Counted from the stretch's first letter, positions 1,345 to 26,880 are shown. The stretch is 27,759 nt of DNA from a virus (IMGVR_UViG_3300046474_000252:1-27759), one strand, 5' to 3'. Notes: generated by a model from the letters alone, not told the origin. Made by a program: numbers and translations.

Positions 1345-2637
1345 TTAGACCGAGCAGGTCAGCTTGCGGATTGCTTCAGCCAGGACAACCTGACCGCCGA
1401 GGCGACGGCGGAAGATGAAGCGGACGTTGCCGCTCGTTGCCTGCGTGTAAGGATCGCGGAGCATTTCCATGGCAATGCGGTCAACCAGGTTGTAACCGCG
1501 GGCGAAGTCGCCGTAAGCTACAGGCGTGGTGCCCGCGCCTTCGTTCGGCATGTCCGGAACTTCGACGTAGGGGTCGCCGTCGATCGTGTTCGGGCGGCCG
1601 AGGGCAATCCCGGGCATCCAGATATAGTTGTTCTGGCCGTCCTTCAAGCGACGTACAGAGCCGAGCGTGGTGCGGTTCAGTGCCCACGAAGCGTTGCGCG
1701 TGTAGGCGGTCTTGAGGCCGTACTTCAGCGACAGCAGGCCGTTCGCCTGGCCGGTAGCATCGGCGATCGTGGTGGCAGAGCCGGAGTTGTTGCCCGAAAC
1801 GCCAGCAGCGACAAGGAAGCCTTCCGGCTTGCCGACGCCATTGCCGGACACGAAGGCGGCGCCTTCAGCGACAGCGAACTGCTCGGTAGCTTCGAAGCTG
1901 ATTTCCGATTCCATGTTGAATGCGGAGTCTTCGAGGTTCTGGTTCGAGATATCGATCAGAGCGAAGAGCTCGTGGGTCGGGATTTCCCACATGCCGTAGC
2001 GCAGGCCGTCGGTCTCGGACTTGGTGCCCTGCTCAGCAACCCACTGCGCGGCAAACTGGCCAGTGCGCTTCGGGATCTGGATGGACTTGGAAGCGGTCTG
2101 GCGAACGCGAGCAAGCGCGCGTGCCGGAGAGATTTCCGTAACGGTCTTGATGATTTCTCGGACGTATTCAACCGGAGCAAGGTAGCCGCCAGTCGTGTCG
2201 TTGCCGACAGAAAGTGCCTTGTATTCAGCGGCGACGTCAGCGAGAGCCTTCTGCTGTTCGGTAGAGAGGTTCGGAACGCCGATCGTGTGAGCGCCGACGA
2301 CTGCACGAGCCCAGAGGTTTACCTTGGACTTTAGTTCTTCCTTGCGCTTTTCCGGATCAGACGAACCAGCGAGCGACAGGCGATTGAGCTTTTCTTCGAG
2401 CTCATCGACGTGCTTCTTTTCGTCATCGAGAGCCTTCTTGGTCTCGAGCAGTTCGGCGGTTGCCTTCTGGTTGTCCTTTTCGAACTTGTCCAGAGCGCCG
2501 TTGATGCGTTCAACCTTTTCGGAGAGGACGACGTCAGCGGCGCCCTTCTTTTCGATTTCCTTGAGGCGATTGTCGTTGGCTGCCTTGAACTCTTCGAAGG
2601 CAGACATAACCTGCTCGACGGCAGTTTTGTCAGTCAT
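1345..2637 (-). CDS. major capsid protein, HK97 family
   Basis: This 430-residue protein has the typical HK97 layout. Roughly the first 105 residues are charged and helical (a coiled-coil delta/scaffolding domain rich in Glu and Lys). The capsid fold follows, with signatures such as GGYLAPVEYVREIIKTV, a Trp-containing N-arm, and GNVRFIFRRRLGGQVVLAEA near the end. The prohead protease encoded just upstream is expected to remove the delta domain during maturation. The start is fixed by AGGAGACC before ATG. An ANDN tetrapeptide lies near residues 20-23, inside the part predicted to be cleaved off. The family call is secure; the cleavage site was not determined. Confidence 0.95.
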   Translation of the reverse strand: MTDKTAVEQVMSAFEEFKAANDNRLKEIEKKGAADVVLSEKVERINGALDKFEKDNQKATAELLETKKALDDEKKHVDELEEKLNRLSLAGSSDPEKRKEELKSKVNLWARAVVGAHTIGVPNLSTEQQKALADVAAEYKALSVGNDTTGGYLAPVEYVREIIKTVTEISPARALARVRQTASKSIQIPKRTGQFAAQWVAEQGTKSETDGLRYGMWEIPTHELFALIDISNQNLEDSAFNMESEISFEATEQFAVAEGAAFVSGNGVGKPEGFLVAAGVSGNNSGSATTIADATGQANGLLSLKYGLKTAYTRNASWALNRTTLGSVRRLKDGQNNYIWMPGIALGRPNTIDGDPYVEVPDMPNEGAGTTPVAYGDFARGYNLVDRIAMEMLRDPYTQATSGNVRFIFRRRLGGQVVLAEAIRKLTCSV

Positions 2638-2680
2638 GGTGGTCTCCTGGTGATGTGGTGTGGTTAAGAGCGTGCCGCCG

Positions 2681-3418
2681 CTAGGCGATCAGCGCCTTGA
2701 TGCGCTCCGCCAGCCCGGTAAGCTCGGCGTCGCTCTTGATTGCCGCTTCGTCCTCATCACGAGGATCCGTTTCCGGCTCTGCTTCGTCGCGAAGCAGTAT
2801 GCTTTTGAAGACTGCAACAGCTTTCACGCTGTCTGCCCGCGACAAACCTGCATCTCGCAGGCCGTCTTCGATTTCTCGCGGATTAAGTTCGGATTTCACG
2901 CTCAGAACGCGCGCCTTTCCGTTCATTGGGAACGTCACGAGGCTGCATTCCAGCAGATCGACCGCCTTCAGCGTGCGCCGCGGCTCAGTTGGAGTGCTGC
3001 GAAGCGTCCATTCCTTGGCTCGGTAGCCGATGGAAAGCCCTGAAATCGCCGGCCGTGGCTTCATTTTCAGAAGCTCGTAAACCTCGCGGCCGCGCTCCGT
3101 ATTGGCAAGTTTTCCTTCGACATAGAGGCCAATATCGTCCTCTTTCATCTCGGTCCACACGCCAATCGGGGTCATTTGGCTGCCATAAACGCCATGCTGA
3201 GACAGCATTGCAGGCCAGATTCCCGTCGATTTCGCCGCTTTGATCGTTTCTGCGAACGCACCCTTCAAAATCAGGTCGTCGCCGGCGTCGACGTTATTAA
3301 ACACCGCGCCGTAGCCAGAAAACGTCATTTCACCGTCAGATGCGGTGATATCGGCGACTTTTAGTTCGCCAAGGCCAAAACTGCGGTGCTCAATGGCACC
3401 AACACCTTTATTCGTCAT
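2681..3418 (-). CDS. prohead protease, HK97 family (peptidase S78)
   Basis: This 245-residue protein fits the HK97 prohead protease family. It has the FSGYGAVFNNVDAGDD opening, LKGAF, a catalytic-type His in LSQHG (about residue 75), and the serine motif SGLSIGY (residues 126-132). The later VDLLECSLVTFPMN segment is also typical. The enzyme cleaves the capsid scaffolding domain during prohead maturation. The ATG overlaps the portal stop by four bases (ATGA), the usual portal-protease-capsid order. The last 70 or so residues are an acidic and basic helical extension that may interact with scaffold. Confidence 0.95.
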   Translation of the reverse strand: MTNKGVGAIEHRSFGLGELKVADITASDGEMTFSGYGAVFNNVDAGDDLILKGAFAETIKAAKSTGIWPAMLSQHGVYGSQMTPIGVWTEMKEDDIGLYVEGKLANTERGREVYELLKMKPRPAISGLSIGYRAKEWTLRSTPTEPRRTLKAVDLLECSLVTFPMNGKARVLSVKSELNPREIEDGLRDAGLSRADSVKAVAVFKSILLRDEAEPETDPRDEDEAAIKSDAELTGLAERIKALIA

Positions 3419-6788: not shown

Positions 6789-7148
6789 TCACCACCAGAC
6801 GCCAGTCGGCTCCGCCTGCTCTTCCCTCTGCTTCTCTTTCGAGTGGCATTCTTCGCAAAGGCACCACAGATTGCCCCGATCCAAGAACAACTGCGGATCC
6901 CCACGATGTGGCTTGCGATGGTCAGCAACCAGCTTCGATGTATCGCCCTCTAGCTTGCCGCACATCTGGCAAGTGAACATCGCTTCGACGAGTACATCCC
7001 ATCTCATCGATCTCCATCTCTTCAGACCATACCACTTGCGCCAGGGCGCGCGCTGTGCGCGCTCTTGGTCCCGCGTCAGTGGCGCTGCCTTGCCGATGGT
7101 TGTTGGTGCGGACGATAGGCGAGGCTTAAGCGATGTTAGCTTGGTCAT
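6789..7148 (-). CDS. HNH endonuclease of the DNA-packaging module
   Basis: This 119-residue protein has a compact HNH fold: CQMC (C60, C63), the core VADHRKPHRGDP (D76, H77), NLWCLCEECH (N93, C98, C101, H102). The pattern matches HNH proteins encoded beside terminase genes in HK97-type cos phages, which are required for specific cos cleavage (HK97 gp74 is the known example). The ATG at 7148 overlaps the upstream TGA by four bases and has AAAGG upstream; an earlier in-frame start lies inside the previous gene and is less likely. It is probably a packaging factor, not a homing enzyme. Confidence 0.87.
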   Translation of the reverse strand: MTKLTSLKPRLSSAPTTIGKAAPLTRDQERAQRAPWRKWYGLKRWRSMRWDVLVEAMFTCQMCGKLEGDTSKLVADHRKPHRGDPQLFLDRGNLWCLCEECHSKEKQREEQAEPTGVWW

Positions 7149-7972
7149 GCTACCTTTGAAAACAGGCTTGGCTGAGCAGGCGGCGTATTGCCCTTGAAAG
7201 CGTTGCACTTCCTGCATGCGCACTGCGTATTTAAGTAGCTGTGCGCGCCACCCAAGCTAAGCGGCATGATGTGATCAAGCTCTGGAGCCCTGTCATCATA
7301 TGTGCCACGCAGCTTCCGTGGCGTCTTCACACCGCATATCTGACATGTCCACTTATCTCGGTCGAATACCTTGTTTGGATCAACCACCTCAACGAACGCT
7401 GCCCTGAGGCGGGCTCGCTCTTTATGGCCAGCCTTGCGACCATGATTTCTTCTTCCGCATTTTGCGGAGCAATATACGGACCTGAAGTCACCGTACGATG
7501 TGGTAAAAGTCTCGCCACACTCGGCGCAAGTTATGGGAGAATGATCGCGGTTGTCATTGGCTGCGTTAAGCTGCTTCGCCCTAACGCTCTCTTTTTCTGC
7601 CCTGCAACGATCAGAGCAGAACTTCGAAGTTGTCGTCTTTGCGGTGAACCAAGAGACGCACACATCGCAACGCTTCTTTAGAACCACAAATTGGACAGGA
7701 GCCGAGATAGCTGCCCTGTCTCGATAATTCTCAAATGCGCAATCACGACTACAGAACCTAGTTCTGTCAGTTCGCTTTGGCTTGAACACTACCTTGCACT
7801 GTTCACACTCGTAGTCCGCCTTGACAGTGTACTTTGCCGTAGCGACAGCGCGCTGGCACTTTTCGGAGCAATACTTCTGCCCATGCCTTGGCTTAGCAAT
7901 AGTTGCGTCGCACTTGGCGCAACGCAGAACATTATCGTTGGCAGCAACAGGGCCGCCGAATAGTGCATCCAT
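7145..7972 (-). CDS. zinc-finger HNH endonuclease (homing type)
   Basis: This protein of about 275 residues carries a series of Cys-pair zinc-ribbon modules (CAKC...KYCSEKC, CEQC...RFCSRDC, CDVC...KFCSDRC, CAEC...VYCSAKC). A C-terminal HNH domain follows: WTCQICG, ELDHIMPLSLGG, NTQCACRKCN. This layout suits a free-standing homing or group I-like endonuclease with DNA-reading fingers. Two ANDN tetrapeptides occur, one near the N-terminus and one between finger modules. The C-terminus PAQPSLFSKVA resembles a sliding-clamp-binding peptide. The start could be ATG 7972 or the TTG at 7975, which is better spaced from AAGGAG. Its stop overlaps the packaging HNH gene. Confidence 0.85.
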   Translation of the reverse strand: MDALFGGPVAANDNVLRCAKCDATIAKPRHGQKYCSEKCQRAVATAKYTVKADYECEQCKVVFKPKRTDRTRFCSRDCAFENYRDRAAISAPVQFVVLKKRCDVCVSWFTAKTTTSKFCSDRCRAEKESVRAKQLNAANDNRDHSPITCAECGETFTTSYGDFRSVYCSAKCGRRNHGRKAGHKERARLRAAFVEVVDPNKVFDRDKWTCQICGVKTPRKLRGTYDDRAPELDHIMPLSLGGAHSYLNTQCACRKCNAFKGNTPPAQPSLFSKVA

Positions 7973-8006
7973 CAAGGTCTCGACTCCTTGCCGACCTCAT
8001 GTTGAA

Positions 8007-8032: not shown

Positions 8033-8080
8033 ACAGATCAGCGCAAGAGGTCGAGAATTGCGCCGATACATTGAATTGAA

Positions 8081-8150
8081 GCCGCCACCAGGATTTGAAC
8101 CCGAACCAACCGGATACAAGCCGGACACGCTACCGTTACGCCATGGCGGC
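8081..8150 (-). tRNA. tRNA-Thr (anticodon UGU)
   Basis: The minus strand folds as a complete cloverleaf of 70 bases. The acceptor stem is GCCGCCA/TGGCGGC, a perfect seven pairs. The D arm has the AACGGTA loop and two wobble pairs. The anticodon arm CCGG-CTTGTAT-CCGG places TGT in the canonical C-T-anticodon-A-T loop. The T arm has loop TTCAAAT. One T-T mismatch closes the anticodon stem. The discriminator base would be T at 8080, and the CCA end is not encoded. It would read ACA threonine codons. Phages often carry tRNAs; the T-T mismatch and wobble D stem leave some chance that it is decayed. Confidence 0.78.
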
Positions 8151-8712: not shown

Positions 8713-9639
8713 TCAGATATCCATCGAAGAATTTGCAGTCTTCGCCAAATAAAGTGCATCTGCCAGATTATCATTGGCGGCGACAAGCAGGCGCTTACCG
8801 GCTTCGATGGCATACTGCCCTTTAAAGCCGCGTGCTTCGCCGATCTGCTTCAGGCTGCTGGCCTTAACTGCAAGCGTCAGAATCTTGAAATGTTCATCAG
8901 CCATCTTGCTTACCGCATCCAGCCATTCCTGACGCTCTTCGCGCTGGCTGACGATGTCCTGCCACATGACTGAACCGCCACCTGCGCAAGTCGTCTTCTG
9001 CATACCCAGGAAACTGTCGGCGACCTTCTTTGCGCCACAAGGAAGGCCGTCTGGATACTTGGTGAATGTCACCTTGCTCATGTCGGTGTTGGCGTATGCC
9101 TTGGCCAACTCCGCCTTTGCCTCGTCATGGGTGATCTTGATGCGCTCGCCTTTGGGGCGCTTGCCAGTGAGATATCTCGGCTTCTTGGTGTTCAGCATGG
9201 CACAGAAGTATTCGTTGCTATCCGTAACCTCTTGCGGGTTCTCTTCGCCACCGAGCGCGACATCGACTTTATCACGGCAGCGAAGCATGGCGCCTGCTGG
9301 CATTCTGGCCGCGTATTCTTCAAGCTTGCCGTCGATCGTGAAGCGGAATGCCTTCTCCGTCTGGGTGCCGTCGCTGAAGCGCAACTTGCCTATTCTGATT
9401 ATCTGGCCTGTTTCGTTTTGCTCCACATCGGCAAGACGGACGTTTCTCATGATTTCGGCAACAGATGGAGTGACCAGCCGCTTGCGATCATGTTTTAGCT
9501 CAGCGACATCTTCCGGGTCATTGTCGTTGGCAGGTACGGTTGCCCAGTTTGTTTGAACCGGCTCTGGTTCATGGTCCGCAACGGAGATTAGCTCATTGAT
9601 CGCAGATAGCTGCTCTGCGAGCGATCCGTGGCGAGCCAT
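8713..9639 (-). CDS. unknown protein with C-terminal HTH-like segment; possible late-gene regulator
   Basis: This 308-residue protein is not recognised as a named family. The first 60 residues are low in structure and contain VPANDNDP. A central region (about 60-130) looks beta-rich, and a conserved-looking Cys pair follows (DGLPCGAKK...KTTCAGGGS). The final 70 residues are helical, and LKQIGEARGFKGQYAIEAGKR reads like a helix-turn-helix, followed by VAANDN. It is encoded after the phage promoter at 9943-9971 and is the last protein-coding gene before the tRNA and packaging block, so a late transcription activator is plausible. That role is inference. Its start overlaps the preceding stop as TAATG. 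Confidence 0.75.
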   Translation of the reverse strand: MARHGSLAEQLSAINELISVADHEPEPVQTNWATVPANDNDPEDVAELKHDRKRLVTPSVAEIMRNVRLADVEQNETGQIIRIGKLRFSDGTQTEKAFRFTIDGKLEEYAARMPAGAMLRCRDKVDVALGGEENPQEVTDSNEYFCAMLNTKKPRYLTGKRPKGERIKITHDEAKAELAKAYANTDMSKVTFTKYPDGLPCGAKKVADSFLGMQKTTCAGGGSVMWQDIVSQREERQEWLDAVSKMADEHFKILTLAVKASSLKQIGEARGFKGQYAIEAGKRLLVAANDNLADALYLAKTANSSMDI

Positions 9640-9942: not shown

Positions 9943-9971
9943 AAGATGATGTAAACTTACAAATTTGTCAA
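9943..9971 (-). promoter_or_regulatory. sigma70-like promoter with palindromic operator (copy 1)
   Basis: A perfect -35 box TTGACA (9966-9971) is followed after 17 bases by CATCTT, a weak -10. The -35 box runs into the palindrome ACAAATTTGT. TTGACAAATTTGTAA is shared exactly with two other sites in this window (10315-10320 and 18811-18816 mark their -35 boxes). It lies 44 bases upstream of the start of the 86-residue gene, right after a terminator. Confidence 0.65.
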
Positions 9972-10001
9972 GAACGACAAAGGCCGCGCAATGGCGGCCT
10001 T
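9972..10001 (-). terminator. Rho-independent terminator after the secreted small protein gene
   Basis: On the minus strand AAGGCCGC and GCGGCCTT form a perfect eight-base stem with loop CATTGC, followed by TGTCGTTCTT. It begins about 25 bases after the stop of the gene at 10026-10256 and directly precedes promoter copy 1, separating two transcription units. Confidence 0.75.
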
Positions 10002-10291: not shown

Positions 10292-10320
10292 AATGTAGGT
10301 GCGTTTTACAAATTTGTCAA
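10292..10320 (-). promoter_or_regulatory. sigma70-like promoter with palindromic operator (copy 2)
   Basis: TTGACA (10315-10320), a 17-base spacer and TACATT (10292-10297) form a near-consensus promoter. The spacer begins with the same AATTTGTAA as copies 1 and 3, giving the palindrome ACAAATTTGT over the -35 region. The -35 box overlaps the TGA stop of the VRR-NUC gene, and the start of the secreted-protein gene lies 36 bases downstream. Confidence 0.75.
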
Positions 10321-13404: not shown

Positions 13405-14075
13405 TATGCTGCTTTCCTCTCTGCGGCCTTGTTGTCGTTGGCGTGAGATAGTTTGTGGCCCGCGGGTGATACTGCGCGTAACCGAGCGTGAACGGCGTGG
13501 TATTCCTGCCAAGCGCGGCGAAGGTCGACGTCAACGATGCAGTAGGTAACGCCTCCATCATGCGAGATCGCATCGACGTCATCAGCCTTAAACCCATGGC
13601 CAGACAGAAAGTCTGCCATCATCTTCGCGAATGTATTAGGCGGCGCGTGGTCAATCTCGGCTGAGGCGTTATCGATGACGCCGCCTGTTATGGCGCAAGA
13701 CGATGTGCCGCTGGCAAATGTCTCCCTCCTGAATGCATCAATCTGCAGGAAAATCTCATTGCGAAAGGCGCGCTTTGCCTTCTGCTTTTTCGATGGCCGG
13801 CCATTCAGGCAGATAATGTAAGAGAAGTCGTCGACGGAACCGTCGGTGCGGAGGATGTAGAAACCCCTGCTGTAATAAGGCGGGACAAGGTCAACCTTGA
13901 ACGCCAAAACCCCGGCGCCGATTTTCTCATCGGCTGCCGGGTGCTCTTGGAGGAGCGATAGAAGGTCTTCATGGTGTTCCGCTAGGCGTTCGCCGATTTT
14001 AGCGGTGTTCAGGATGTTGGAGAAATAAGCCTTTCTGGCTTTCTTGGTTGGCTTTTTGTCTGCTTGGCTAGTCAT
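13404..14075 (-). CDS. DUF3223 domain protein
   Basis: This 223-residue protein has a Lys-rich N-terminus and a region matching DUF3223: an FRNEIFLQIDAFRRE segment, then CAITGGVIDN and AEIDHAPPNTF. The C-x2-TG and DH-containing motif resembles a degraded HNH-like fold, but nuclease activity cannot be assumed. An ANDN tetrapeptide lies in the C-terminal tail (LSHANDNKAAERKAA). The gene is coupled on both sides: ATGA with the end of the cytosine methyltransferase frame and TAATG with the primase. Its constant place in a replication operon suggests a DNA-related role. Confidence 0.8.
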   Translation of the reverse strand: MTSQADKKPTKKARKAYFSNILNTAKIGERLAEHHEDLLSLLQEHPAADEKIGAGVLAFKVDLVPPYYSRGFYILRTDGSVDDFSYIICLNGRPSKKQKAKRAFRNEIFLQIDAFRRETFASGTSSCAITGGVIDNASAEIDHAPPNTFAKMMADFLSGHGFKADDVDAISHDGGVTYCIVDVDLRRAWQEYHAVHARLRAVSPAGHKLSHANDNKAAERKAA

Positions 14076-14770
14076 GCCGCTTTAGTCTCCTCATTGTCAC
14101 CGAGCGGTGAATTGTCGTTGGCGGGTGTGGTGGCAACCGCGAAAGGAGCGCTAACCGCAGCCAACGCCCGCTCAACCCTCATGATGGCTCGACCGATGGC
14201 TTCTGGGATCTGCGGGCAGACTGCGTCGCCGAACGCCTCGACGATGAGGCTAGCTGCAACTGTCCCGCGTGGACCGCCGACTGCAATGCGCGACTGAGCC
14301 ACCCACTGGGATAACCCATCATCCACCCGTAGGTGATGGGCAAGGCCGCGGTTCCAGTCAGCCCATGGCTCTGCAATAGGTGTGCCAGTGCCCTCGCTCC
14401 CGCCCATTTCTCCGATGCCCTGCCCGTCATGGCTCCGTCCATCACTGCATCCATCGTCGGACTGTGGCGCTTGTCGTAGGCTGGACTCCACGAATCCATC
14501 CTCTTGTCGCGCTTCGTTGGTGTTGGCAGGGTTTCCAATTGGCGAGTTCCCATCGCCATTGTCGTTACTAGCGATACTCCGGTAGTTTTCTCGCTCGTCG
14601 CTTTGGTTATCTCCGGACCATGATTCGCATCCGATGCTCTCGGAGTTGGCATCATTGCCTTGCGCGGTGTTGCCAGCATCACATTCCACGGCCGGCACGA
14701 TTCCCATTTCTGCATGCTGTCTGCTGCGAAATTGGCTTTCGTCGTTGGCGTGTGAAACATTTGAATCCAA
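14072..14770 (-). CDS. C5-cytosine methyltransferase, C-terminal part (shifted frame)
   Basis: This frame carries the end of the cytosine methyltransferase that starts at 15258. Near its C-terminus lie LRVDDGL and EAFGDAVCPQIPEAIGRAI, matching C5-methylase motifs IX-X (the GNAVxPQ element). It then ends TTPANDNSPLGDNEETKAA with the phage-wide ANDN motif, and its TGA overlaps the ATG of the DUF3223 gene. The first 130 residues are hydrophilic and of low complexity. No good start or ribosome-binding site precedes it, so it is probably not an independent gene but the continuation of the methylase after two single-base shifts near 14813 and 14767. Confidence 0.7.
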   Translation of the reverse strand: MDSNVSHANDESQFRSRQHAEMGIVPAVECDAGNTAQGNDANSESIGCESWSGDNQSDERENYRSIASNDNGDGNSPIGNPANTNEARQEDGFVESSLRQAPQSDDGCSDGRSHDGQGIGEMGGSEGTGTPIAEPWADWNRGLAHHLRVDDGLSQWVAQSRIAVGGPRGTVAASLIVEAFGDAVCPQIPEAIGRAIMRVERALAAVSAPFAVATTPANDNSPLGDNEETKAA

Positions 14771-15258
14771 TAAGCCAGCTTCGCTTGCGTTCGTGGTTGG
14801 CTCCGATGTTTTCCAGCACTGACCACAAACGGCCAGCAGGTGTAGCCGATGCCTTCCAGCGCATCGATGACCCTGTCTGCTCCTCTAGTTCTGAGATTAG
14901 CGCTATTCTCAAGAGCGAACCAACGAGGTCTGCATTCGTCAATGAGCCTGACTGCTTCGAAGTATAGTCCGCTGCGTTCCCCGTCGACGCCCTTTCCTTT
15001 TGTGTTGGCGCCGCTGATGTCTTGGCACGGCGGGCTGCCGACGACGATGTCTGGAAGTCCAATACCGTCCCGAACAAGTCTGTCTGCTGTGAGTGTGGTG
15101 ACGTCGTCATAAACAGGAACTCCCGGGTTGTTTTCGGAATAGAGTGCTCGGCGCCAGTGGATTACTTCGCATGCGGCAATGGTGCGGTAGCCGGCGCGGT
15201 GCATGCCGAGCGACCAGCCGCCGGCCGCTGCGCTGAACAGGTCTAGGACGCGGATCAA
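14179..15258 (-). CDS. C5-cytosine DNA methyltransferase, N-terminal part (apparently frameshifted)
   Basis: The frame opens with TTG at 15258, seven bases after GGGAGG, and overlaps the upstream stop. It shows C5-methylase motif I (DLFSAAAGG, residues 6-14), motif IV with the catalytic Cys (GSPPCQD, Cys78) and motif VI (ALENSAN, about 116-120). Motif VIII is missing in this frame but appears as ENIGANHERKRSW one frame over, and motif X appears in a third frame (14072-14770). Removing one G near 14813-14814 and one near 14767-14768 joins them into a single 394-residue enzyme. The remaining 200 codons of this frame contain PTP repeats and GWMMGYPSGW and seem to belong to an overlapping protein. 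Confidence 0.75.
   Translation of the reverse strand: MIRVLDLFSAAAGGWSLGMHRAGYRTIAACEVIHWRRALYSENNPGVPVYDDVTTLTADRLVRDGIGLPDIVVGSPPCQDISGANTKGKGVDGERSGLYFEAVRLIDECRPRWFALENSANLRTRGADRVIDALEGIGYTCWPFVVSAGKHRSQPRTQAKLAYWIQMFHTPTTKANFAADSMQKWESCRPWNVMLATPRKAMMPTPRASDANHGPEITKATSEKTTGVSLVTTMAMGTRQLETLPTPTKRDKRMDSWSPAYDKRHSPTMDAVMDGAMTGRASEKWAGARALAHLLQSHGLTGTAALPITYGWMMGYPSGWLSRALQSAVHAGQLQLASSSRRSATQSARRSQKPSVEPS
14679..15110 (-). other. overlapping reading frame inside the cytosine methyltransferase gene
   Basis: This frame starts at ATG 15110, about nine bases after GGGAG, and gives MTTSPHSQQTDLFGTVLDF, then SSSAARRAKTSA, LLRIALISELEEQTGSSMRW and KASATPAGRLW. From memory these phrases recur in phage proteins with PTP repeats and a final GYPxGW. 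The same two single-base shifts that repair the methylase would carry this frame through KTSEPTTNASEAGL into the frame containing FHTPTTKANF, LPTPTKRDKRMDSWSP and GWMMGYPSGW, ending at 14179: about 309 residues, entirely overlapping the methylase. Whether it is translated is unknown. Confidence 0.45.
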
Positions 15259-15647
15259 AACGGCGCCTCCCGAAGAGCTTCACGAATCCCCTCAGCACAT
15301 CCGCGCCATGCTGCTTTAACCAGCATTAGCTGCATGAGCTCGTCATAGTGTGCTAGCTCGGTCACGCCACCATTGGCGGCGATCCACTCGCCGACGGCCT
15401 CGACGCCCTTCTCGAGCGCCTTCACTTCGTACAAGCTAATTCTGTCCAACTTCGTGAGGTCTCCTGTTGCGACGATACATGGCTTGCAGAGGTAGCCTGG
15501 ATCAGGCGGCCGGGATTTGTCACCGGGAGTGGAGCGGCCGAGCCCGATCGACATGCAGCCACACGCCTTGCAGACGGTGGGGTTTTTCTGGACATCAACC
15601 GTCGGCGTAAACGGGATGATTGGCTTGCCTGTTGGGAGGGGGGTCAT
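15255..15647 (-). CDS. small zinc-binding protein (DUF6511-like)
   Basis: This 130-residue protein has a Cys-x2-Cys pair (CKACGC) and a second pair (LCKPC), likely binding one zinc, followed by a helical region (LTKLDRISLYEVKALEKGVE, then LAHYDELMQLMLVKAAWRGC). The layout resembles DUF6511 proteins of alphaproteobacterial phages; the match is from memory. The ATG at 15647 overlaps the stop of the N6/N4 methylase (ATGA), and its own TGA overlaps the TTG of the cytosine methylase. A longer frame upstream lies inside the methylase and is rejected. It may assist or recruit the flanking methyltransferases. Confidence 0.75.
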   Translation of the reverse strand: MTPLPTGKPIIPFTPTVDVQKNPTVCKACGCMSIGLGRSTPGDKSRPPDPGYLCKPCIVATGDLTKLDRISLYEVKALEKGVEAVGEWIAANGGVTELAHYDELMQLMLVKAAWRGCAEGIREALREAPF

Positions 15648-16501
15648 GCTGCCACCGCAGAGAAGAGGTCGGCGGGACGGTTGTCGTTTGCCTGTGCGAA
15701 GCAGTGGCCGCCACAGCACTCGCCGCGGTCGTATCTGGCCGCATCGGGGCACGGCACGGCGGCTGGCCGTGCTCGCGCGACAGCGGGCCGCCTGTTGTCA
15801 TTGGCGCCGTTGATGCGCTGCTCGGCTATCGCGAAATAGCTAGGATCCCGCTCAATGCCTACGAAGCTACGACCAGCAAGGCGGCAAGCAACGCCTGTCG
15901 TGCCGCTCCCCATCGTGTTGTCCAAGACCGTTTCACCCTCATTCGTGTAGGTGCGAATGAGGTACTCGAAGAGAGCGACTGGCTTTTGGGTGGGGTGGCC
16001 ATCCTTCACGCGGGGCTGCGGAATAGCCAATATGCTCGTTGGGTAACGTCTGCCGTCGCTATCTGTAGAGTTATACACCTGCGATCCATAGTTGGACGTC
16101 GCATGTGATCTGCTGATCGAATACGGCTTGCCATCGCTGAACTGCGGGTTGTACGTCGGCTGCCTGCTATAAAAGACAAGCACATCCTCATGCCGGCGCA
16201 GCGGTTGCTTTTTTGCGTTCAGGAATCCTGTTACCTGCGATTTGTACCACACCCACTGGTACTTGAATAAGTCTGGTGCGCTCATCACCAAGGCGCTGGT
16301 GAACGGCTGTGCAGCGGTCAGAACTATTGCGCCTCGGCATATCCGACGGTACTCCGCCCACAGACGATCCAACGGAATGATGGAGTCCCACTTGTTCTGC
16401 GTTGTGCCGTAAGGAAGGTCGCACAGCACCATATCGACGCTGCTGGCGGGAATGGTAGGAAGTATTTCAAGGCAGTCACCATGTCTCAGATCTATGCGCA
16501 T
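15644..16501 (-). CDS. N6/N4 DNA methyltransferase (beta class)
   Basis: From ATG 16501 the protein has 285 residues. It follows the beta-class order: catalytic motif IV (CDLPYGTTQNKWD, about residues 27-39) before the cofactor motif I (DNTMGSGTTGVA, about 194-205), with HPTQKPVALFEYLI between. It should methylate adenine N6 or cytosine N4 at a specific sequence, probably protecting phage DNA. The C-terminal tail after residue 215 is unusual: two ANDN motifs flank a Cys-rich stretch (GECCGGHC), and it ends PADLFSAVAA. The start overlaps the MT-A70 gene by ten bases. Confidence 0.9.
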   Translation of the reverse strand: MRIDLRHGDCLEILPTIPASSVDMVLCDLPYGTTQNKWDSIIPLDRLWAEYRRICRGAIVLTAAQPFTSALVMSAPDLFKYQWVWYKSQVTGFLNAKKQPLRRHEDVLVFYSRQPTYNPQFSDGKPYSISRSHATSNYGSQVYNSTDSDGRRYPTSILAIPQPRVKDGHPTQKPVALFEYLIRTYTNEGETVLDNTMGSGTTGVACRLAGRSFVGIERDPSYFAIAEQRINGANDNRRPAVARARPAAVPCPDAARYDRGECCGGHCFAQANDNRPADLFSAVAA

Positions 16502-17076
16502 GCCCGCACCTCCGCATTGTCGTTCGCCGCCACCACAGGTGCAGCCTCGAACTTCCCCACCTGATTCCCCCACGCCGACCACCCGGTCCACGCCTGACGC
16601 GCAAACAACTCGAGATACGGCCCGCCGACCAAGGACTCGACGCGGCCATAGACCTCGTCCGGCTTGCGGCTATGCTCGCGGCGCGGCGCGCGGATAACGG
16701 AGCGCACGCCCTTCCCTAGCCGCCGAGGCTTGCCGCGCTTGAATAGGTGGCAAATCTCCACTTCCTGGCGCGTCCAGTAGCCCATGCCCATGCGGCCTTT
16801 GTCCCAGACGAAGGCGATCGACACAGGCGAAAAACCCCATGCGGCCGCAACTTCGAAGGCCGGCTGCTGGAGATGAGAAACGGTCCACATGAAGAGCAGA
16901 CAGTTCGGCGCCGCAACGTCAGTGACGGGCAGCGCCTTGATGTCGTCGATCGACATTACGGAATACGGCTGTGCGCCTCGAGCGGGCGCGACGTTGGCTT
17001 TGGAATACGTTCTGAACGACCACGGCGGATCCGCCAAGATCGCGCCGAATCTTCCCTCCGGTAGTGGGTTTTCCAA
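16492..17076 (-). CDS. MT-A70 family adenine methyltransferase
   Basis: This 194-residue protein has the MT-A70 signature: ILADPPWSF with DPPW at residues 16-19, YSVMSIDDIKALPV, LLFMWTVSHLQQPAFEVAAAWGF, and ELFARQAWTGWSAWGNQV. It would transfer methyl groups to adenine N6. The start codon is TTG, supported by a strong AGGAGA five bases away. The final residues carry VAANDNAEVRACA. It heads a coupled operon of methyltransferases, DUF3223 and prim-pol genes, behind two leader hairpins at 17100-17136. Confidence 0.9.
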   Translation of the reverse strand: MENPLPEGRFGAILADPPWSFRTYSKANVAPARGAQPYSVMSIDDIKALPVTDVAAPNCLLFMWTVSHLQQPAFEVAAAWGFSPVSIAFVWDKGRMGMGYWTRQEVEICHLFKRGKPRRLGKGVRSVIRAPRREHSRKPDEVYGRVESLVGGPYLELFARQAWTGWSAWGNQVGKFEAAPVVAANDNAEVRACA

Positions 17077-18787: not shown

Positions 18788-18816
18788 AATGTCGCGTAAA
18801 CTTACAAATTTGTCAA
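18788..18816 (-). promoter_or_regulatory. sigma70-like promoter with palindromic operator (copy 3)
   Basis: TTGACA (18811-18816), 17 bases, then GACATT (18788-18793). The first 20 bases and more match copy 1 exactly, starting TTGACAAATTTGTAAG. It sits directly after the helicase stop, with a start site expected near 18781, about 25 bases before the small protein's ATG. The embedded palindrome ACAAATTTGT suggests repressor or activator control. Confidence 0.72.
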
Positions 18817-18821
18817 GCGCA

Positions 18822-20555
18822 CTAGAACGGGATATCCTCTTCCCACTCCTCGGCATAGCCTCGGCGGTTGTCGTTGGCGGCAGGTGGGGTGTTGTCGTTG
18901 GCTGGGCCGACTATGTGGCTGACGACATCCCAGTATTTTTCACGAGGCTTGACCATAATCTCAGACACTTCGGCCAACTCCCCTTGCCTCTCCAGCCACT
19001 CGAGCGGAGATTTAGGAAATGGCCGCAAGCCGCTGAGATGAATCCAAAGACGGTCAGCCTTCGATTTTGGAAAGCCAGTGTGACCTGGGCACGCCCATTC
19101 AGAAATGGAAGTCATGCCACACATGTAGCTTATCTTCACTGAATCTGGCTTCCCGCCTTTGCCTGGGTGCAAGCGAAATGTCCTGCTGCTCACCCTTCGG
19201 CTTTCGGGCTCGGCCACGGTTGCCAAGATAGCAACATCGGTCGGCTTGGCGGTGAACCCCGGCTTCTCCTCAAAGATGAACTCGTTGCCGCAGTTCGGGC
19301 AGACGCGAGCACCTGCCGCACAGATCTCCTCGCACTGCATGCACAATTTTATTGGCGCTTGGCCATCTCCCTTGCCTGGCTTCTTCGGCTGCACGCAATC
19401 GACAGGCCCGTGCCGCTCGATGTTTCCAGCAAAGTTCATGTAGCGGCAGTTAGGCTTCGGCCCGCGCGCAATCGCGGCCTTGCGGCCTTCTGCGTCCGTC
19501 GAATCTGGATCGAAGCCAGCAGGCCAAACCACTCGAGTTCCTCGAACCGCTCTCTGCACATAGCGGTTTGTGGACTCGGTCGGCGCCAAATCCGCAACAA
19601 GGTCAACGCGAGGAATATTTGTGCCGGTCGAAAGAACGTTATCGTTCGTGCACCCCCAAAGGCGACCAGACTTCAGATCCTCAATGATGCGACGACGCTC
19701 TCCCTTCGGCGTCTTACCGCTCAGCACTTCACACGACTTGCCGTATTGCCGTATTTCATCACGTACGTGGGTGGCGTGATCGATGCCGTTGCAGAATATA
19801 ATTGCGGTCGTGCGGTTCTCCGCTTGAGCCGCAGCCATAATTTCCGAAACAGCGGCGCGTGTCAGTTCCTCCTTATCGGTGGCTTTTGCCAGGTCTGATT
19901 TCTTGAAGTCGCCGCCGAGACGCCGAACACCCTTCATATCATAGCTGAAGTCGCACGGCTTGCTGGTGAGCCGCGTCAGGTAGCCATCATCGATGCCTTT
20001 GGCTAGATCGTATGTGTAAACTGTTTTGTCGAAAAGGCGATCGTCTCCCTCATCGAGGCGACCGAAGTCAAGCCGATAGAGCGTTGCAGAAAAACCAACG
20101 ATCTTCATGTCCGGATTGATTGCAAGCAATGCCGCAATGAGCTTGCGATACATCGTGTTGCCATCGTTTGGCACAAGATGGACTTCGTCAATGATCAGGA
20201 CATCGACGTGGCCAATCTCTAACGCCTTATCCCATACCGTCTGCAACTGCGCGAACAACACCTGCGCACGGCAGTCTCGCCGTCCAAGGCTCGCCGCATA
20301 GATACCCGCTGGTCCGAACGGGCGCATGCCTATGTACTCCTTGAAGTTGCCCTCAACGAGTTCTTCAACGTGCACGCATGAGAGCACACGCATGTCTGGC
20401 CAGCCATCCAGCAGTCGCTGAATGAGCATCGACATCGTGCCGCTTTTTCCAGACCCGCCGGCCATCTCGACGAGTGGATGACCGGGCTGCTCAAGCCAGT
20501 AATCGAAGACGCTGTCTACGGCCTCGACCTGATAATATCGAGGGGAGAATGCCAT
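18822..20555 (-). CDS. SF2 DEAD/DEAH-box helicase with zinc ribbon
   Basis: From ATG 20555 the protein has 577 residues. Superfamily 2 motifs are clear: a Q-like RYYQVEAV, Walker A MAGGSGKSG (31-39), Walker B IIDEVH (121-126), SAT (156-158), and YVQRAVRGTR as motif VI. A zinc ribbon follows (CMQCEEICAAGARVCPNCG). The C-terminal 100 residues end in a flexible tail with two ANDN motifs and the acidic tip AEEWEEDIPF, close to the tail of bacterial SSB. It probably unwinds phage replication or recombination intermediates and may recruit partners through the tail. The start overlaps the upstream stop. Confidence 0.92.
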   Translation of the reverse strand: MAFSPRYYQVEAVDSVFDYWLEQPGHPLVEMAGGSGKSGTMSMLIQRLLDGWPDMRVLSCVHVEELVEGNFKEYIGMRPFGPAGIYAASLGRRDCRAQVLFAQLQTVWDKALEIGHVDVLIIDEVHLVPNDGNTMYRKLIAALLAINPDMKIVGFSATLYRLDFGRLDEGDDRLFDKTVYTYDLAKGIDDGYLTRLTSKPCDFSYDMKGVRRLGGDFKKSDLAKATDKEELTRAAVSEIMAAAQAENRTTAIIFCNGIDHATHVRDEIRQYGKSCEVLSGKTPKGERRRIIEDLKSGRLWGCTNDNVLSTGTNIPRVDLVADLAPTESTNRYVQRAVRGTRVVWPAGFDPDSTDAEGRKAAIARGPKPNCRYMNFAGNIERHGPVDCVQPKKPGKGDGQAPIKLCMQCEEICAAGARVCPNCGNEFIFEEKPGFTAKPTDVAILATVAEPESRRVSSRTFRLHPGKGGKPDSVKISYMCGMTSISEWACPGHTGFPKSKADRLWIHLSGLRPFPKSPLEWLERQGELAEVSEIMVKPREKYWDVVSHIVGPANDNTPPAANDNRRGYAEEWEEDIPF

Positions 20556-20911
20556 CAGGCCGCCTCCTGCTTCTGCTGCCAAGCGGCCTTCCAGTCATGA
20601 GACCATTGGGCGCGTGCCTCCTTTGCAGCGCGCACTCGATCTTTTGCGGCCAGCGCCTCAGGCTCGCCCCGCTCGGTCAGGAAGTAGATGGTGGCGCCCT
20701 TTCCGAACGACAGGATGCTGGCCTTTACCCATCCGTTCTTGCGCATCTTTGTGAACGCTGGCCGCAACCAGCGATCACCCGGTTCCATGCGACCGCAGAA
20801 CGTGCCGTCGGCCTTCACGTAATCGGCCATGAGGCTGTCAATGTGTTTCGGCTCAGGCGGCAACTTGCGACCAACCAACTCCTCTGACCACGTCAGTTTT
20901 TTCTTCGCCAT
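20555..20911 (-). CDS. winged-helix-like small protein
   Basis: This 118-residue protein has a basic start (MAKKKLTWSEELVG), a middle containing RWLRPAFTKMRKNGWVKAS, and ATIYFLTERGEPEAL, which resembles the wing and final helix of winged-helix proteins (the LTERG element). The Arg/Ala/Lys-rich C-terminus (AAKDRVRAAKEARAQW) may contact DNA. It lies between the sigma factor and the helicase and is coupled to both by TGATG overlaps, so a regulator or helicase partner is possible. The fold assignment is inferred from a short pattern. Confidence 0.72.
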   Translation of the reverse strand: MAKKKLTWSEELVGRKLPPEPKHIDSLMADYVKADGTFCGRMEPGDRWLRPAFTKMRKNGWVKASILSFGKGATIYFLTERGEPEALAAKDRVRAAKEARAQWSHDWKAAWQQKQEAA

Positions 20912-21443: not shown

Positions 21444-22298
21444 TTAGGCTGCGTTGTCTTTCTTCACTGGATTGTTATCGTTGGCTGCGAGAGGGATTGA
21501 CAAGGCAAGGCTTGGTTGAAATGGCTTGTCTAGTTTTGCGCCCTTGCTCCTGTTGTCGGATTTCCACAACGGTCTCAAATTTGACAATGCCCAGCATCGC
21601 ATGAAGTCTATATCGTCGGGAGTTTCGTAGTTGTGCGCAGCTATGGGAACAATATGGTCGATCTCCCAGTCTCCATAGTTGCCCCAAGACATTCCAGGCA
21701 GAAACCTCTTTTCAAGGTGATCCTTCAACTGTTCGACGGTGTATCCGACGAGGTTTTCCCAGTGCCTTCTTGCCTTAGAGCCCTTCTGAATGCTGCCTTT
21801 TATACCACTCGAAATCGATGAGCTAAGCCTTCCTTTTGGGGTCGACCTGAACCTTTTAGCGTCCCGCCTCGCAGCTTTCTTTGCTTTTTCTGGATTGTCT
21901 GCTCTCCATTTTCGTACCCTGTCCCTGTCTTCGTTTGGGTTCGTCAACTTTCTAATATCTCGAAGATCTTTATCCCTGCCTGGGTTCTCGGCTCTTTGTT
22001 TCCTCTTCAGCTCCCTGAGCCTGTCGCGCTCGCTGTCTACATTTGCCCAATATCGATTTCGATGTCTTAGGTTCGTCTCTTCTCGTTTCTCGTCTCGAGT
22101 CTTCCAGTATTTTTCTTTGGCTTTCTCGCGATCACACTCTGAGCATGCGCAATTTGTGTTTCGCCGCGTCGACAGATGGCCGCGAATGCATGGGTCTCCG
22201 GTGAAGTAGAACTTTGCCCCTACCCTCTTCGCTTCATCGCGGCTCCTCGGTAGGTTGTCATTCGCAGCGACTATCTCCGTCACGCCAGATGGTTCCAT
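21444..22298 (-). CDS. HNH endonuclease (homing type)
   Basis: This protein of about 284 residues has a Cys-rich N-terminal part (GDPCIRGHLSTRRNTNCACS), a long Arg/Lys/Glu-rich middle (about residues 60-180) that probably binds DNA, and a C-terminal HNH-type domain: WEIDHIVPIAAHN, then CWALSNLRPLWKSDN. ANDN motifs lie near both ends (VAANDNLP and LAANDNNP). The start is uncertain: ATG 22298 is used here, 22325 has AGGA close by, and both overlap the upstream nuclease gene. The base composition is more AT-rich than its neighbours, which suggests later acquisition as a mobile endonuclease. Confidence 0.83.
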   Translation of the reverse strand: MEPSGVTEIVAANDNLPRSRDEAKRVGAKFYFTGDPCIRGHLSTRRNTNCACSECDREKAKEKYWKTRDEKREETNLRHRNRYWANVDSERDRLRELKRKQRAENPGRDKDLRDIRKLTNPNEDRDRVRKWRADNPEKAKKAARRDAKRFRSTPKGRLSSSISSGIKGSIQKGSKARRHWENLVGYTVEQLKDHLEKRFLPGMSWGNYGDWEIDHIVPIAAHNYETPDDIDFMRCWALSNLRPLWKSDNRSKGAKLDKPFQPSLALSIPLAANDNNPVKKDNAA

Positions 22299-23871: not shown

Positions 23872-24936
23872 TCACACCCGCATAGGCATGAGAACGGCAA
23901 GCAACTCTGGCGCTTTCTCAGACGTAAATACGGCCGGCGATCCACTGTCATTCAGGGCCAGATGGATATCACCTACAGGAAAAATGCCGACTAGCTCGGT
24001 AAGGTATGAAGCGTTGAACCCGATCTCGATTGGCTCGTCATCGTACCCGACATTGATTTCATCGGTCGCGCTTCCGTTATCCAGCGTGCTGACTGACAGC
24101 GTCGCCTCACCATCAGCGAAAGACAGCTTCACCGCACGGCCGCGCTCACCTGAGACAACAGAGACACGTCCGGCAGCCTGGCGCATATCTTCGCTTCCGA
24201 AGACAATCTTCTTGTCGTTGCCGGTTGGGATGACGCGCTGGTAATCCGGAAAGGTGCCGTCCACGAGCTTGCTAACGAGCGTGAAATCACCTGACTGAAT
24301 GCGGATCTTCGCCTCCGAAACAGAGACATTGACTGTACCCTTTGGCACGAGGCCAACCGCCTTGCGCGGCACGATCACGCCTTTGAATGGGTCTTCGCCG
24401 GTGTATGCCACTTGATGGCGCGACAATCGGTGGCCGTCCGTAGCAACGGCGCGCAACTGGCCGTCTTGAACATGCATAAAGATGCCATTTAGGTAATAGC
24501 GCGTCTCTTCCGTCGACATCGCAAATGCCACTGGCGCGAACAGCGCGGCAAGATCAATCTCGAAGCTGGTCGTGTACTTGCCACCGTCGAGCGACGGGAA
24601 GTCGGCAGCCGGGAGCGTTGATAAGGTGAAGCGAGAGCGTCCGGACGTGACGAGCAACTGTCCGTTGTCCTCGGACAGCGACACGTCGCCGCCGGCTTTC
24701 TTGGCTATGTCCGAAAGCAACTTGGCGTCGACACAGACGGCACCTGGCTGTTCGACGGTAGCTGCGGCTGCGTCGGTGGCGACAATATCAAGGTCGGTGC
24801 CGGTCACTTGCAGGCGGTCGGTGGTGGCCGTGAGCAGCACGTTGCCGAGGATCGGGATTGTGTTGCGGCTTTCGACTACGCGCCCGACGTTGGTCAGGAC
24901 GCGCGCTAGGTCGGATTTGGGGATGGTGAGTTTCAT
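23872..24936 (-). CDS. dnaN: DNA polymerase III beta subunit (sliding clamp)
   Basis: This full-length clamp of 354 residues has three matching domains. Recognisable parts are MKLTIPKSDLARVLTNVGRVV, TIPILGNVLLTA, a second-domain RYYLNGIFMHVQDGQLRAVATDGHR split by the usual loop, and the C-terminal AVLMPMRV typical of bacterial DnaN. It should encircle DNA as a dimer and hold polymerase and repair enzymes. A clamp encoded by a phage lets it recruit host or own polymerase during replication. AGGAGA and a hairpin with ACCAA loop (24958-24982) precede the ATG. Close resemblance to bacterial clamps suggests capture from a host. Confidence 0.95.
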   Translation of the reverse strand: MKLTIPKSDLARVLTNVGRVVESRNTIPILGNVLLTATTDRLQVTGTDLDIVATDAAAATVEQPGAVCVDAKLLSDIAKKAGGDVSLSEDNGQLLVTSGRSRFTLSTLPAADFPSLDGGKYTTSFEIDLAALFAPVAFAMSTEETRYYLNGIFMHVQDGQLRAVATDGHRLSRHQVAYTGEDPFKGVIVPRKAVGLVPKGTVNVSVSEAKIRIQSGDFTLVSKLVDGTFPDYQRVIPTGNDKKIVFGSEDMRQAAGRVSVVSGERGRAVKLSFADGEATLSVSTLDNGSATDEINVGYDDEPIEIGFNASYLTELVGIFPVGDIHLALNDSGSPAVFTSEKAPELLAVLMPMRV

Positions 24937-24957
24937 GGTGTCTCCTCTTGGTGGGGT

Positions 24958-24982
24958 GCCGCACGGTTGGTTGCCGTGCGGC
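24958..24982 (-). promoter_or_regulatory. leader hairpin with ACCAA loop (H2), before dnaN
   Basis: GCCGCACGG and CCGTGCGGC form a perfect nine-base stem around the loop CAACCAA on the minus strand, between the lipoprotein stop and the dnaN ribosome-binding site. Its stem is the arm-swapped counterpart of the hairpin at 27650-27674, so pairing is kept while the sequence changes. Confidence 0.68.
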
Positions 24983-24991
24983 TGGCTGGGG

Positions 24992-25375
24992 CTACTTCAG
25001 ATCGAAATCGGGGATGATCGTTGAAGGCTTGAAAATGACCTTGTAATGGTAGGTGCTGACGCCCGCCGCATCGATTTGTTCTGCGAAGTACGTGACGTTG
25101 TCAGAGATGCCGAGGAAGTGTTTCTTGAACTGGTTTGGTCCTGTCTTGCAGGTGACCGTCACTTCCTTCGGCCCGTCGTTGTTTCCTAGCGAGCAAAGCC
25201 CCTCGATCGTGAGGATATAGTCACCGCTGATGCCGTTGTAGAAAACGATGCGGCGGTTGATCTGGAACATGTCGGCGGCCTGCGACAGGTTGCGCGAGGC
25301 AACATTGGCGTCGCTGTCGCATCCGACCAATAAGGCGGTCGCGGCAATCATCGCGGCGAAAAAAATACGCTTCAT
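24992..25375 (-). CDS. phage lipoprotein
   Basis: From ATG 25375 the protein has 127 residues. It starts with a lipoprotein signal (MKRIFFAAMIAATALLVGC) with lipobox LVGC, so the mature protein is anchored by Cys19 with Asp at +2. The rest is beta-rich (RRIVFYNGISGDYILTIEG, then KEVTVTCKTGPN), with two further Cys. It resembles what phage annotators call beta-sandwich lipoproteins, suspected of superinfection exclusion; this is from memory. GAGGAGA and a hairpin with ACCAA loop lie upstream. A longer start 17 codons upstream would ruin the signal peptide. Confidence 0.85.
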   Translation of the reverse strand: MKRIFFAAMIAATALLVGCDSDANVASRNLSQAADMFQINRRIVFYNGISGDYILTIEGLCSLGNNDGPKEVTVTCKTGPNQFKKHFLGISDNVTYFAEQIDAAGVSTYHYKVIFKPSTIIPDFDLK

Positions 25376-25399
25376 AATTAGTCTCCTCTTGTGGTAATT

Positions 25400-25424
25400 G
25401 GCGGGCCGTTGGTGACGACCCGCC
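25400..25424 (-). promoter_or_regulatory. leader hairpin with ACCAA loop (H3), before the lipoprotein gene
   Basis: On the minus strand GGCGGGTCG pairs with CGGCCCGCC (nine pairs including one U-G) around the loop TCACCAA. The pairing is complete only in the transcribed RNA, since the other strand would have a C-A mismatch. It lies between the DUF669 gene stop and the lipoprotein ribosome-binding site. Confidence 0.62.
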
Positions 25425-25451
25425 ACGTTATGCTGTCACGCTACGGCGCTG

Positions 25452-26027
25452 TTACTTCTTCGCACCCCACGGCCTTGACCCGGCAGGCTTCGCTGCTGCG
25501 GCCTGCTGCTGGCCAGCCGGAGCTCGGGACGCAGGACGGTTGTCGTTCGCGGCGGCCGGTTTGGTGGGTTGAACTGCGTCGATTTCAGGATCGGGCAGGT
25601 CGATGGCGTTACCCTGATCGTCAGTCGGGAAGAAGTACTTCTTGATTTCGGCGCGGGCAGCGTACCCGTTCTGCGCCTTGCCGAGCCCAACCTTTGCGGC
25701 GAACGAATGAAAGTGCAATTCTTCGCTGTCATCCACGCTGTCGACGCCGATGGCACGGCATAGCGATGCAAATTGCTTCTGTCCGATTTCTTGCGCCGTC
25801 GGATTTGCGTTTTCGAGATTGTAGGTGGTGAAGAGCTTGCGACCCTTGTATTGCTCAGGCCCGATCACGACCATCGTGGTTTTCAGGATAGTGCCGTTGC
25901 CAGCCTTCGTCGGGCCGACGTCAGATGCTTCGATTTCGAGCGAGTACGTGCCATTCGGCAATTCCTCGTAGTCGCGCTGCTCAGTGTCGTGCTGCGTGGC
26001 GTCAAATCTTTGACCTAACTGTGCCAT
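25452..26027 (-). CDS. DUF669 single-stranded-DNA-binding-like protein
   Basis: This 191-residue protein matches DUF669: an N-terminal LPNGTYSLEIEASDVGPTK, IGPEQYKGRKLFTTYNLEN, and LCRAIGVDSVDDSEELHF, consistent with an OB-like fold. The tail after residue 150 is disordered, Pro/Ala-rich, holds AAANDNRPAS and ends SRPWGAKK. DUF669 proteins accompany Sak4-type ATPases in phage recombination modules, and here the Sak4-like gene lies directly upstream. It probably coats single-stranded DNA. AAGGAGA precedes the ATG, and a CCAACCACCACG leader lies before it. Confidence 0.87.
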   Translation of the reverse strand: MAQLGQRFDATQHDTEQRDYEELPNGTYSLEIEASDVGPTKAGNGTILKTTMVVIGPEQYKGRKLFTTYNLENANPTAQEIGQKQFASLCRAIGVDSVDDSEELHFHSFAAKVGLGKAQNGYAARAEIKKYFFPTDDQGNAIDLPDPEIDAVQPTKPAAANDNRPASRAPAGQQQAAAAKPAGSRPWGAKK

Positions 26028-26055
26028 TCGTAGTCTCCTTCTTCGTGGTGGTTGG

Positions 26056-26880
26056 TTAAGCTGCGTCTGCTTGGTCGGCAGACGAGTTGTCGTTTGCTGC
26101 TGACGGGAAGAACTTGGCCATCTCCTTATAGCCCTCGCCCTTCTTGTATTTGAGGCTGTCCGGCATACTGAACCGGTTCTTGGCTACGAAGCCGGCCTTC
26201 TCGTTGAGGTGAATATTGCGCTCGTTGCCGCCCTCTGCGTGTGTTACGGTCTTCTTGTTGCCGACGTCCGCCTTGACCAGAGAAACGCGATAGTTGACGA
26301 AGGCGACGACGTCCGCCTTTTCGCGCACCAAAGCGGCGGCTCGTTTATTCAATTTGATTTCGTACCGCGAATATGGGTCAGAAATCGGCGAGTTGAACTG
26401 CACGATGCCTGGGTGCGCAAGCTGGACGACCGTAATGCCAACGTCGGCAAGGTCGCTCAGCGCATCGAGGTATTCTCCCCACTCGACATCAGCCTCGCGG
26501 AAGCCGCGACCGAATCCGGCCGGGGAGCCTTGGCTATTGTCGTCGATGGAGACCGCTCCGATGCGGGCGCAAGTGCGAGCCCAGATGAGCGGCTCAATGC
26601 CGTCAAGTGAATCGACGATGAGCGTCTTGAAGTCGTGCTCAGTCGTCAGCAGTTCGCCAACCACGCCCCAAAGATCGTCCATAGACGTGATCGTGCCGGG
26701 AGTTGCCAGGTCGATATCGGCCGGCGCACGTTCGCCGGCGGTGGGCAGATACAGCGGAGACGGGAATTCGGCGGCAAGGGAAGTCTTGCCGACACCGTCA
26801 ACGCCATAGATAACGAGCAGCGGGGGTCTTTCCTGCGCCTGCTTTTTCGTTGATTTCAAACTTCCAAGCGAAATTGCCAT
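26056..26880 (-). CDS. Sak4-like/AAA recombination ATPase
   Basis: From ATG 26880 the protein has 274 residues. It has Walker A GVDGVGKTS (about 26-34), an acidic Walker B (LIVDSLDG, about 87-94) and a later VGITVVQLAHPGIVQF segment, as in phage RecA-like nucleotide-binding proteins of the Sak4/AAA_24 type. Such ATPases promote single-strand annealing with a phage SSB. The C-terminus ends FFPSAANDNSSADQADAA with the ANDN motif. GGAGGG precedes the ATG. The next gene, DUF669, is its likely partner; the Cas4-like nuclease further down would supply resected ends. Confidence 0.87.
   Translation of the reverse strand: MAISLGSLKSTKKQAQERPPLLVIYGVDGVGKTSLAAEFPSPLYLPTAGERAPADIDLATPGTITSMDDLWGVVGELLTTEHDFKTLIVDSLDGIEPLIWARTCARIGAVSIDDNSQGSPAGFGRGFREADVEWGEYLDALSDLADVGITVVQLAHPGIVQFNSPISDPYSRYEIKLNKRAAALVREKADVVAFVNYRVSLVKADVGNKKTVTHAEGGNERNIHLNEKAGFVAKNRFSMPDSLKYKKGEGYKEMAKFFPSAANDNSSADQADAA

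Follow-up and report, generated by a model that had tools for sequence, protein, structure and literature searches.

A recurrent Ala-Asn-Asp-Asn motif in proteins of temperate rhizobial phages, a candidate gene-encoded mimic of the host tmRNA tag

ANDN Copies in the Window

The virus record IMGVR_UViG_3300046474_000252 (27,759 nt, analyzed over its whole length and referred to here as the window) is related to the temperate rhizobial phage 16-3. Its proteins contain the tetrapeptide Ala-Asn-Asp-Asn (ANDN) 17 times. The copies are spread over 12 proteins; every one is read from the minus strand and falls in a long open frame. A preliminary description of this DNA had reported 17 copies in twelve proteins, and all 17 were located. 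Sixteen of the positions it gave mark the low-coordinate end of the 12-base motif; the remaining one, 26096, should read 26086-26097. The copies are listed below, with tails given up to the stop codon.

26086-26097, minus strand: C-terminal tail of a Sak4-like AAA protein, AANDNSSADQADAA; predicted local distance difference test score (pLDDT) of the tail below 50
25539-25550, minus strand: C-terminal linker of a DUF669 protein (AAANDNRPAS); the protein ends RPWGAKK
22254-22265, minus strand: near the N-terminus of an endonuclease VII/HNH-like protein
21474-21485, minus strand: C-terminal tail of an endonuclease VII/HNH-like protein, AANDNNPVKKDNAA
18891-18902, minus strand: copy 1 of 2 in the helicase tail, PANDNTPPAANDNRRGYAEEWEEDIPF
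18867-18878, minus strand: copy 2 of 2 in the helicase tail
16516-16527, minus strand: C-terminal tail of an MT-A70 methyltransferase, AANDNAEVRACA
15794-15805, minus strand: directly after the domain of an N6_N4 methyltransferase
15680-15691, minus strand: C-terminal tail of the N6_N4 methyltransferase, QANDNRPADLFSAVAA
14111-14122, minus strand: tail of an open reading frame (ORF) overlapping the cytosine methyltransferase gene, PANDNSPLGDNEETKAA
13431-13442, minus strand: C-terminal tail of a DUF3223 protein, HANDNKAAERKAA
9678-9689, minus strand: C-terminal tail of an 86-residue protein, AANDNNHDGAPSNRIAA
9520-9531, minus strand: N-terminal region of a 308-residue protein (phrog_36072)
8767-8778, minus strand: near the C-terminus of the 308-residue protein (phrog_36072)
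7931-7942, minus strand: N-terminus of an HNH endonuclease
7550-7561, minus strand: linker preceding the HNH domain of the same HNH endonuclease
2569-2580, minus strand: N-terminal delta domain of the major capsid protein, in a conserved helix

The N-terminal copy in phrog_36072 (9520-9531) is found at the same place in two relatives (L009 and L017) and in phage NV1.1.1. The capsid copy is probably a coincidental match, since the conserved delta-domain helix of homologous capsids follows the pattern FKxxNDxRLxEI; at the ANDN site these homologs read FKATNDATLAEI, FKSTNDARLNEI, and FKEANDQRIKAL.

The number of copies is far above chance, as the preliminary description had claimed. In the 34 genes (8,209 residues) used for the statistics, per-protein shuffling gives an expectation of 0.06 copies (2,000 trials, maximum 2), and a first-order Markov model gives 0.25. 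ANDN is the commonest tetrapeptide in the window. When the permuted tetrapeptides were counted, as that description had proposed, the other 11 arrangements of A, N, D, and N totaled 1. It had also named copies outside the coding frame as an argument against a peptide motif, and there are none in the other five reading frames. The codons of the copies vary at third positions only, again in line with its account, with GCC and GAC somewhat above background. We reject a DNA-level repeat (an uptake, Chi-like, or recombination site) because all 17 copies lie in a single peptide frame, with synonymous variation.

Consensus and Placement of the Motif

Related phages supplied 204 non-redundant copies with the consensus [AP]ANDNxP. 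The preceding residue is Ala or Pro in 168/204 copies. Arg, Val, Lys, Leu, and Asn are commonest at +1, and Pro occupies +2 in 90/204. The first residue of the motif is itself strongly preferred, as NDN is preceded by A in 172 cases, T in 15, D in 14, S in 11, and E in 9. About half of the copies (103/204) fall in the last 30 residues of their proteins, against an expectation of 13%. ANDN also occurs at N-termini and in linkers. Both the location, mostly in tails and linkers, and the frequent Ala or Pro before the motif had been noticed in the window alone. The window copies fall outside the Pfam domains of the window proteins that were scanned, and in an AlphaFold2 model of the Sak4 protein pLDDT is below 50 from the motif to the C-terminus (residues 262-274), which agrees with the disorder that the preliminary description suggested looking for. 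The carriers are mostly proteins of DNA metabolism; structural carriers are few (the portal and tape measure proteins in 16-3). Selection on a short linear motif at the peptide level, rather than on a site in the DNA, is thus well supported: the copies share one frame, the permutations are absent, the motif avoids domains, and 204 copies exist in related phages.

Distribution among Phages, Mobile Elements, and Hosts

Phages of the 16-3 group encode 7-20 copies of ANDN each, while the mean of the permutations is below one. Host DNA is different. Random stretches totaling 400 kb contain 2 ANDN against 1.6 for the permutations, which rules out a general rhizobial habit as the source of the motif, and in a 5.4-Mb Shinella genome ANDNR matches only within a related prophage region. 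Across 200 Rhizobiaceae genomes, [AP]ANDNxP has about 130 matches versus about 10 for the reversed pattern, and the matches are often clustered as in prophages. Several carriers are unrelated to 16-3. They include small excisionase-like proteins, a methyltransferase that has ANDN at each end (L613), and elements resembling prophages that encode primase/AAA proteins (L702-L705). ANDN is characteristic of the temperate rhizobial phages in the 16-3 group and of further mobile elements found in Rhizobiaceae.

The motif is not a feature of phages of every alphaproteobacterial host, as the virulent rhizobial, Roseobacter, Rhodobacter, and Sphingomonas phages that were read are without it, several of them read over only 26-40 kb. 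Among the class-wide [AP]ANDNxP matches that were read, the majority come from FabD, where NDNAPGQ is a conserved core without relation to the phage motif. Four small alphaproteobacterial proteins (L724, L725, L740, and L741) have two copies each.

The motif is associated with lifestyle. All 11 near-complete ANDN-rich phages have a match to a tyrosine integrase. Two of these matches score below the curated cut-off, and one of the two belongs to 16-3, whose integrase is annotated. None of eight ANDN-poor relatives has one, although they share homologous helicase, Cas4-type exonuclease, or DUF669 genes.

Host tmRNA Tag and SspB

The preliminary description knew of no described function for ANDN. 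This is not right, as ANDN opens the hosts' own transfer-messenger RNA (tmRNA, ssrA) tag. All 27 tmRNA genes of the host order whose tags were read with ARAGORN encode tags starting with ANDN, for example ANDNYAEARLAA and ANDNYAPVAQAA. In the genome carrying relative L001 the tag is ANDNYAEARLAA, preceded by (A). The Ala that precedes the encoded tag is contributed by the tmRNA itself. Alphaproteobacterial tmRNA was found in 28/31 host genomes, and the adaptor SspB (PF04386) in 5/5 host genomes searched. Where compared, sspB adjoins the tmRNA gene; in one host genome (G001), tmRNA is at 242077-242438 and sspB at 242581-243042. Solved structures of SspB relatives are available (2NYS, 2QAS, 2QAZ). 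No phage-encoded SspB was found in the 14 records searched. In E. coli the tag has two parts, AANDENY, which binds SspB, and ALAA, which binds ClpX (PMC8512704).

Proteins with ANDN frequently have the second part as well, in that they end in Ala-Ala (-AA). Among conserved ORFs of the same phages, 51/110 with ANDN end in -AA versus 60/325 without it (p 3e-8). Counted by family, the values are 21/31 and 14/71 (p 7e-6). Host proteins end in -AA in 11/265 cases, and in elements mostly unrelated to 16-3 the ending is found in 13/30 ANDN proteins. About half of the ANDN proteins do not have it. Many tails resemble complete tags: AANDNQPVKEAA and, each directly before the stop codon, AANDNHAVAKVAA, AANDNEAARVAA, NDNVAAERLAA, and NDNGIADKLAA. 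Tail peptides from ANDN carriers include AANDNSSADQADAA, AANDNNPVKKDNAA, and PANDNTPPAANDNRR. The pattern NDN...AA-stop recovers the tmRNA gene in most of 200 Rhizobiaceae genomes; beyond tmRNA, 34 of the 54 distinct matches listed are in frame, where one third is expected (p 8e-6). The gammaproteobacterial counterpart behaves otherwise. NDEN...AA-stop matches almost only tmRNA genes in 299 Pseudomonadota genomes, and AANDEN is no commoner in viral contigs than a permuted control.

Among orthologs of the Sak4 protein (alignment A1; window gene 26056-26880) the -AA end is kept in 7/12, and the tails differ and are mostly without ANDN.

Other Features of the Window

Stretches resembling the QxxLF beta-clamp-binding motif lie in tails near ANDN in 15644-16501 and 7145-7975; they include ADLFSAVAA-stop and QPSLFSKVA-stop, with QADLF in relatives. 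A QADLF-type motif stands beside ANDN in several methyltransferase tails, yet is separate from it. ANDN itself does not have the Gln-x-x-Leu-Phe core and is not a beta-clamp-binding motif of this kind. The window encodes its own DnaN at 23872-24936. The helicase (18822-20582) ends in EEWEEDIPF-stop, and its orthologs in DDDIPF, DDEVPF, or DDSIPF, which resemble the C-terminal tip of single-stranded DNA-binding protein (SSB). Shorter -IPF ends occur in related beta- and gammaproteobacterial phages.

A near-palindromic 15-mer, TTACAAATTTGTCAA, is present in three exact copies (9951-9972, 10306-10320, and 18796-18817) just upstream of minus-strand genes; it looks like a repressor operator. The cytosine methyltransferase (14072-15258) seems to be split over two frames, with the N-terminal part at 14179-15204, while the ORF that ends at 14072 holds a part resembling the C-terminus. 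In relatives the gene is longer and undivided, and a frameshift or sequence error is therefore possible in the window. A tRNA-Thr(TGT) gene is located at 8080-8150 on the minus strand.

A Probable Gene-Encoded Mimic of the tmRNA Tag

ANDN cannot be a true tmRNA-added tag, as it is encoded in frame in the phage genes. The motif is written in the genes themselves and would therefore be a mimic. Judging from sequence, ANDN probably copies into phage genes the first half of the alphaproteobacterial tmRNA tag, the half bound by the adaptor, and would deliver phage proteins to the host SspB/ClpXP, a reading we hold with moderate confidence. The preliminary description had offered sorting, docking, and stability tags as possible roles, and the evidence favors the last. 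Binding by SspB, turnover by ClpXP, and a benefit to the phage are what we infer. Host SspB would bind ANDN where it is exposed in a tail or linker and pass the carrier on to ClpX. The -AA found at many C-termini would be the signal for the ClpX pore, and ClpXP would then unfold the protein and degrade or remodel it. Where -AA is missing, a doubled ANDN may draw the carrier in, or the contact may amount to tethering alone. In vitro, AANDENY in two copies is degraded even when ALAA is absent (PMC8512704), which by analogy could match the two ANDN copies in the helicase tail. A temperate phage might in this way keep its methyltransferases, nucleases, helicase, and recombination proteins short-lived, with such enzymes being cleared when lysogeny is set up or when the prophage leaks.

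Several observations weigh against this reading. The host tags continue with Tyr, Asn, or His after ANDN; at that position the phage motif shows no leaning toward aromatic residues, and it favors Pro at +2. The likeness to the tag was spotted only after the motif was already known. The link with -AA is weaker in genes without an ATGA overlap (23/88 with ANDN versus 48/276), vanishes in the most disorder-like tails, and within ANDN families is slight, as -AA is found in 37/100 members without the motif versus 53/123 with it. Neither the helicase nor the DUF669 tails end in -AA; their last residues are DIPF or PWGxK. Phages of other alphaproteobacteria that were read contain no ANDN. Phage phiLM21 is temperate yet ANDN-poor, with 2 copies, and the rich phages share ancestry and are therefore not 11 independent events.

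The main rival is a different docking partner, either a hub of the phage or element or a Rhizobiales host factor, which might for instance gather DNA-handling proteins, the likeness to the tag being chance or secondary. The departure of [AP]ANDNxP from the tag after ANDN would fit such a partner, as would the copies at N-termini and in linkers and the absence from other alphaproteobacterial phages. The tails often hold further docking-like motifs, QADLF of the beta-clamp type and DIPF of the SSB tail type, and all 11 rich phages have their own DnaN, with no match in the poor ones. With another docking partner, however, there is no reason to expect that the motif equals the opening four residues of the host tag, that -AA ends are in excess, or that unrelated elements in these bacteria (L702-L705, L613) share it, and we regard this alternative as unlikely. 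It is also conceivable that the carriers are not marked for destruction at all, and that the many copies act as decoys, keeping SspB busy during infection so that the host clears tmRNA-tagged or other proteins more slowly. An SspB-like protein encoded by Pseudomonas phage pf16 has been proposed to compete with host SspB (PMC5587285), and carriers such as the helicase and DUF669 protein have no ClpX-type end. A decoy requires neither -AA ends nor spread over low-abundance enzymes, and copies are few in the abundant structural proteins (those of 16-3 being in the portal and tape measure proteins); we consider it improbable. Very improbable, and largely refuted already, is the absence of any function, with ANDN as an Ala/Pro/Asn-rich linker or a DNA-level repeat that recombination has carried from one phage gene to another. 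The tails are rich in Ala and Pro and the motif somewhat favors GCC and GAC codons, but the permutations are absent, the variation is synonymous within one frame, proteins without homology and elements without relationship share the motif, and the excess over the reversed pattern in Rhizobiaceae genomes is large.

If ANDN does mimic the tag, a host "destroy" tag may be built into much of the non-structural proteome of temperate rhizobial phages and mobile elements. Host quality control would thereby set the lifetimes of phage proteins as a class and help to keep lytic growth and lysogeny apart; virulent relatives whose replication genes are homologous do not have the tag. We are slightly inclined to doubt this broader view. 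Were it true, a single adaptor-protease route of the host would tune a large share of a phage proteome via a copied tag, and the lysis-lysogeny balance of rhizobia could be influenced by simple means. It would also provide a natural set of SspB clients, with a sequence rule predicting unstable phage proteins, and the tmRNA tag would be an evolutionary template copied by mobile elements.

Comparison with Known Systems

Phage proteins that are ClpXP substrates are known as individual cases, and SspB clients beyond tmRNA-tagged proteins are few. Our literature search for tag-like ends or a proteome-wide tag-like motif in a phage group found none. The lambda O protein and the Mu transposase MuA are ClpXP substrates (PMC7804408). 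Like the carriers of ANDN, for which host ClpXP is proposed here, they are phage proteins of DNA metabolism, but each has its own unrelated signal, with no adaptor motif common to a phage proteome. Pseudomonas phage pf16 also touches the SspB pathway (PMC5587285). It encodes an adaptor-like protein, an SspB homolog, and not tag-like peptides, whereas the phages here encode no SspB. RseA(1-108) is delivered by SspB to ClpXP in E. coli (PMC8138137) and, as proposed for the ANDN proteins, is a natural gene-encoded SspB client ending in -AA. Its signal is not AAND, and it is a single host protein, exposed by cleavage. The phage motif resembles the alphaproteobacterial tmRNA tag in that it starts with (A)ANDN and is exposed and unstructured, in hosts that have tmRNA and SspB; a C-terminal -AA accompanies it in about half of its carriers. 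Unlike the tag, it may sit at an N-terminus or in a linker, and it shows no preference for Tyr, Asn, or His after ANDN but favors Pro at +2. The tmRNA tag is added on stalled ribosomes, whereas the phage motif is encoded by the gene as part of a complete protein.

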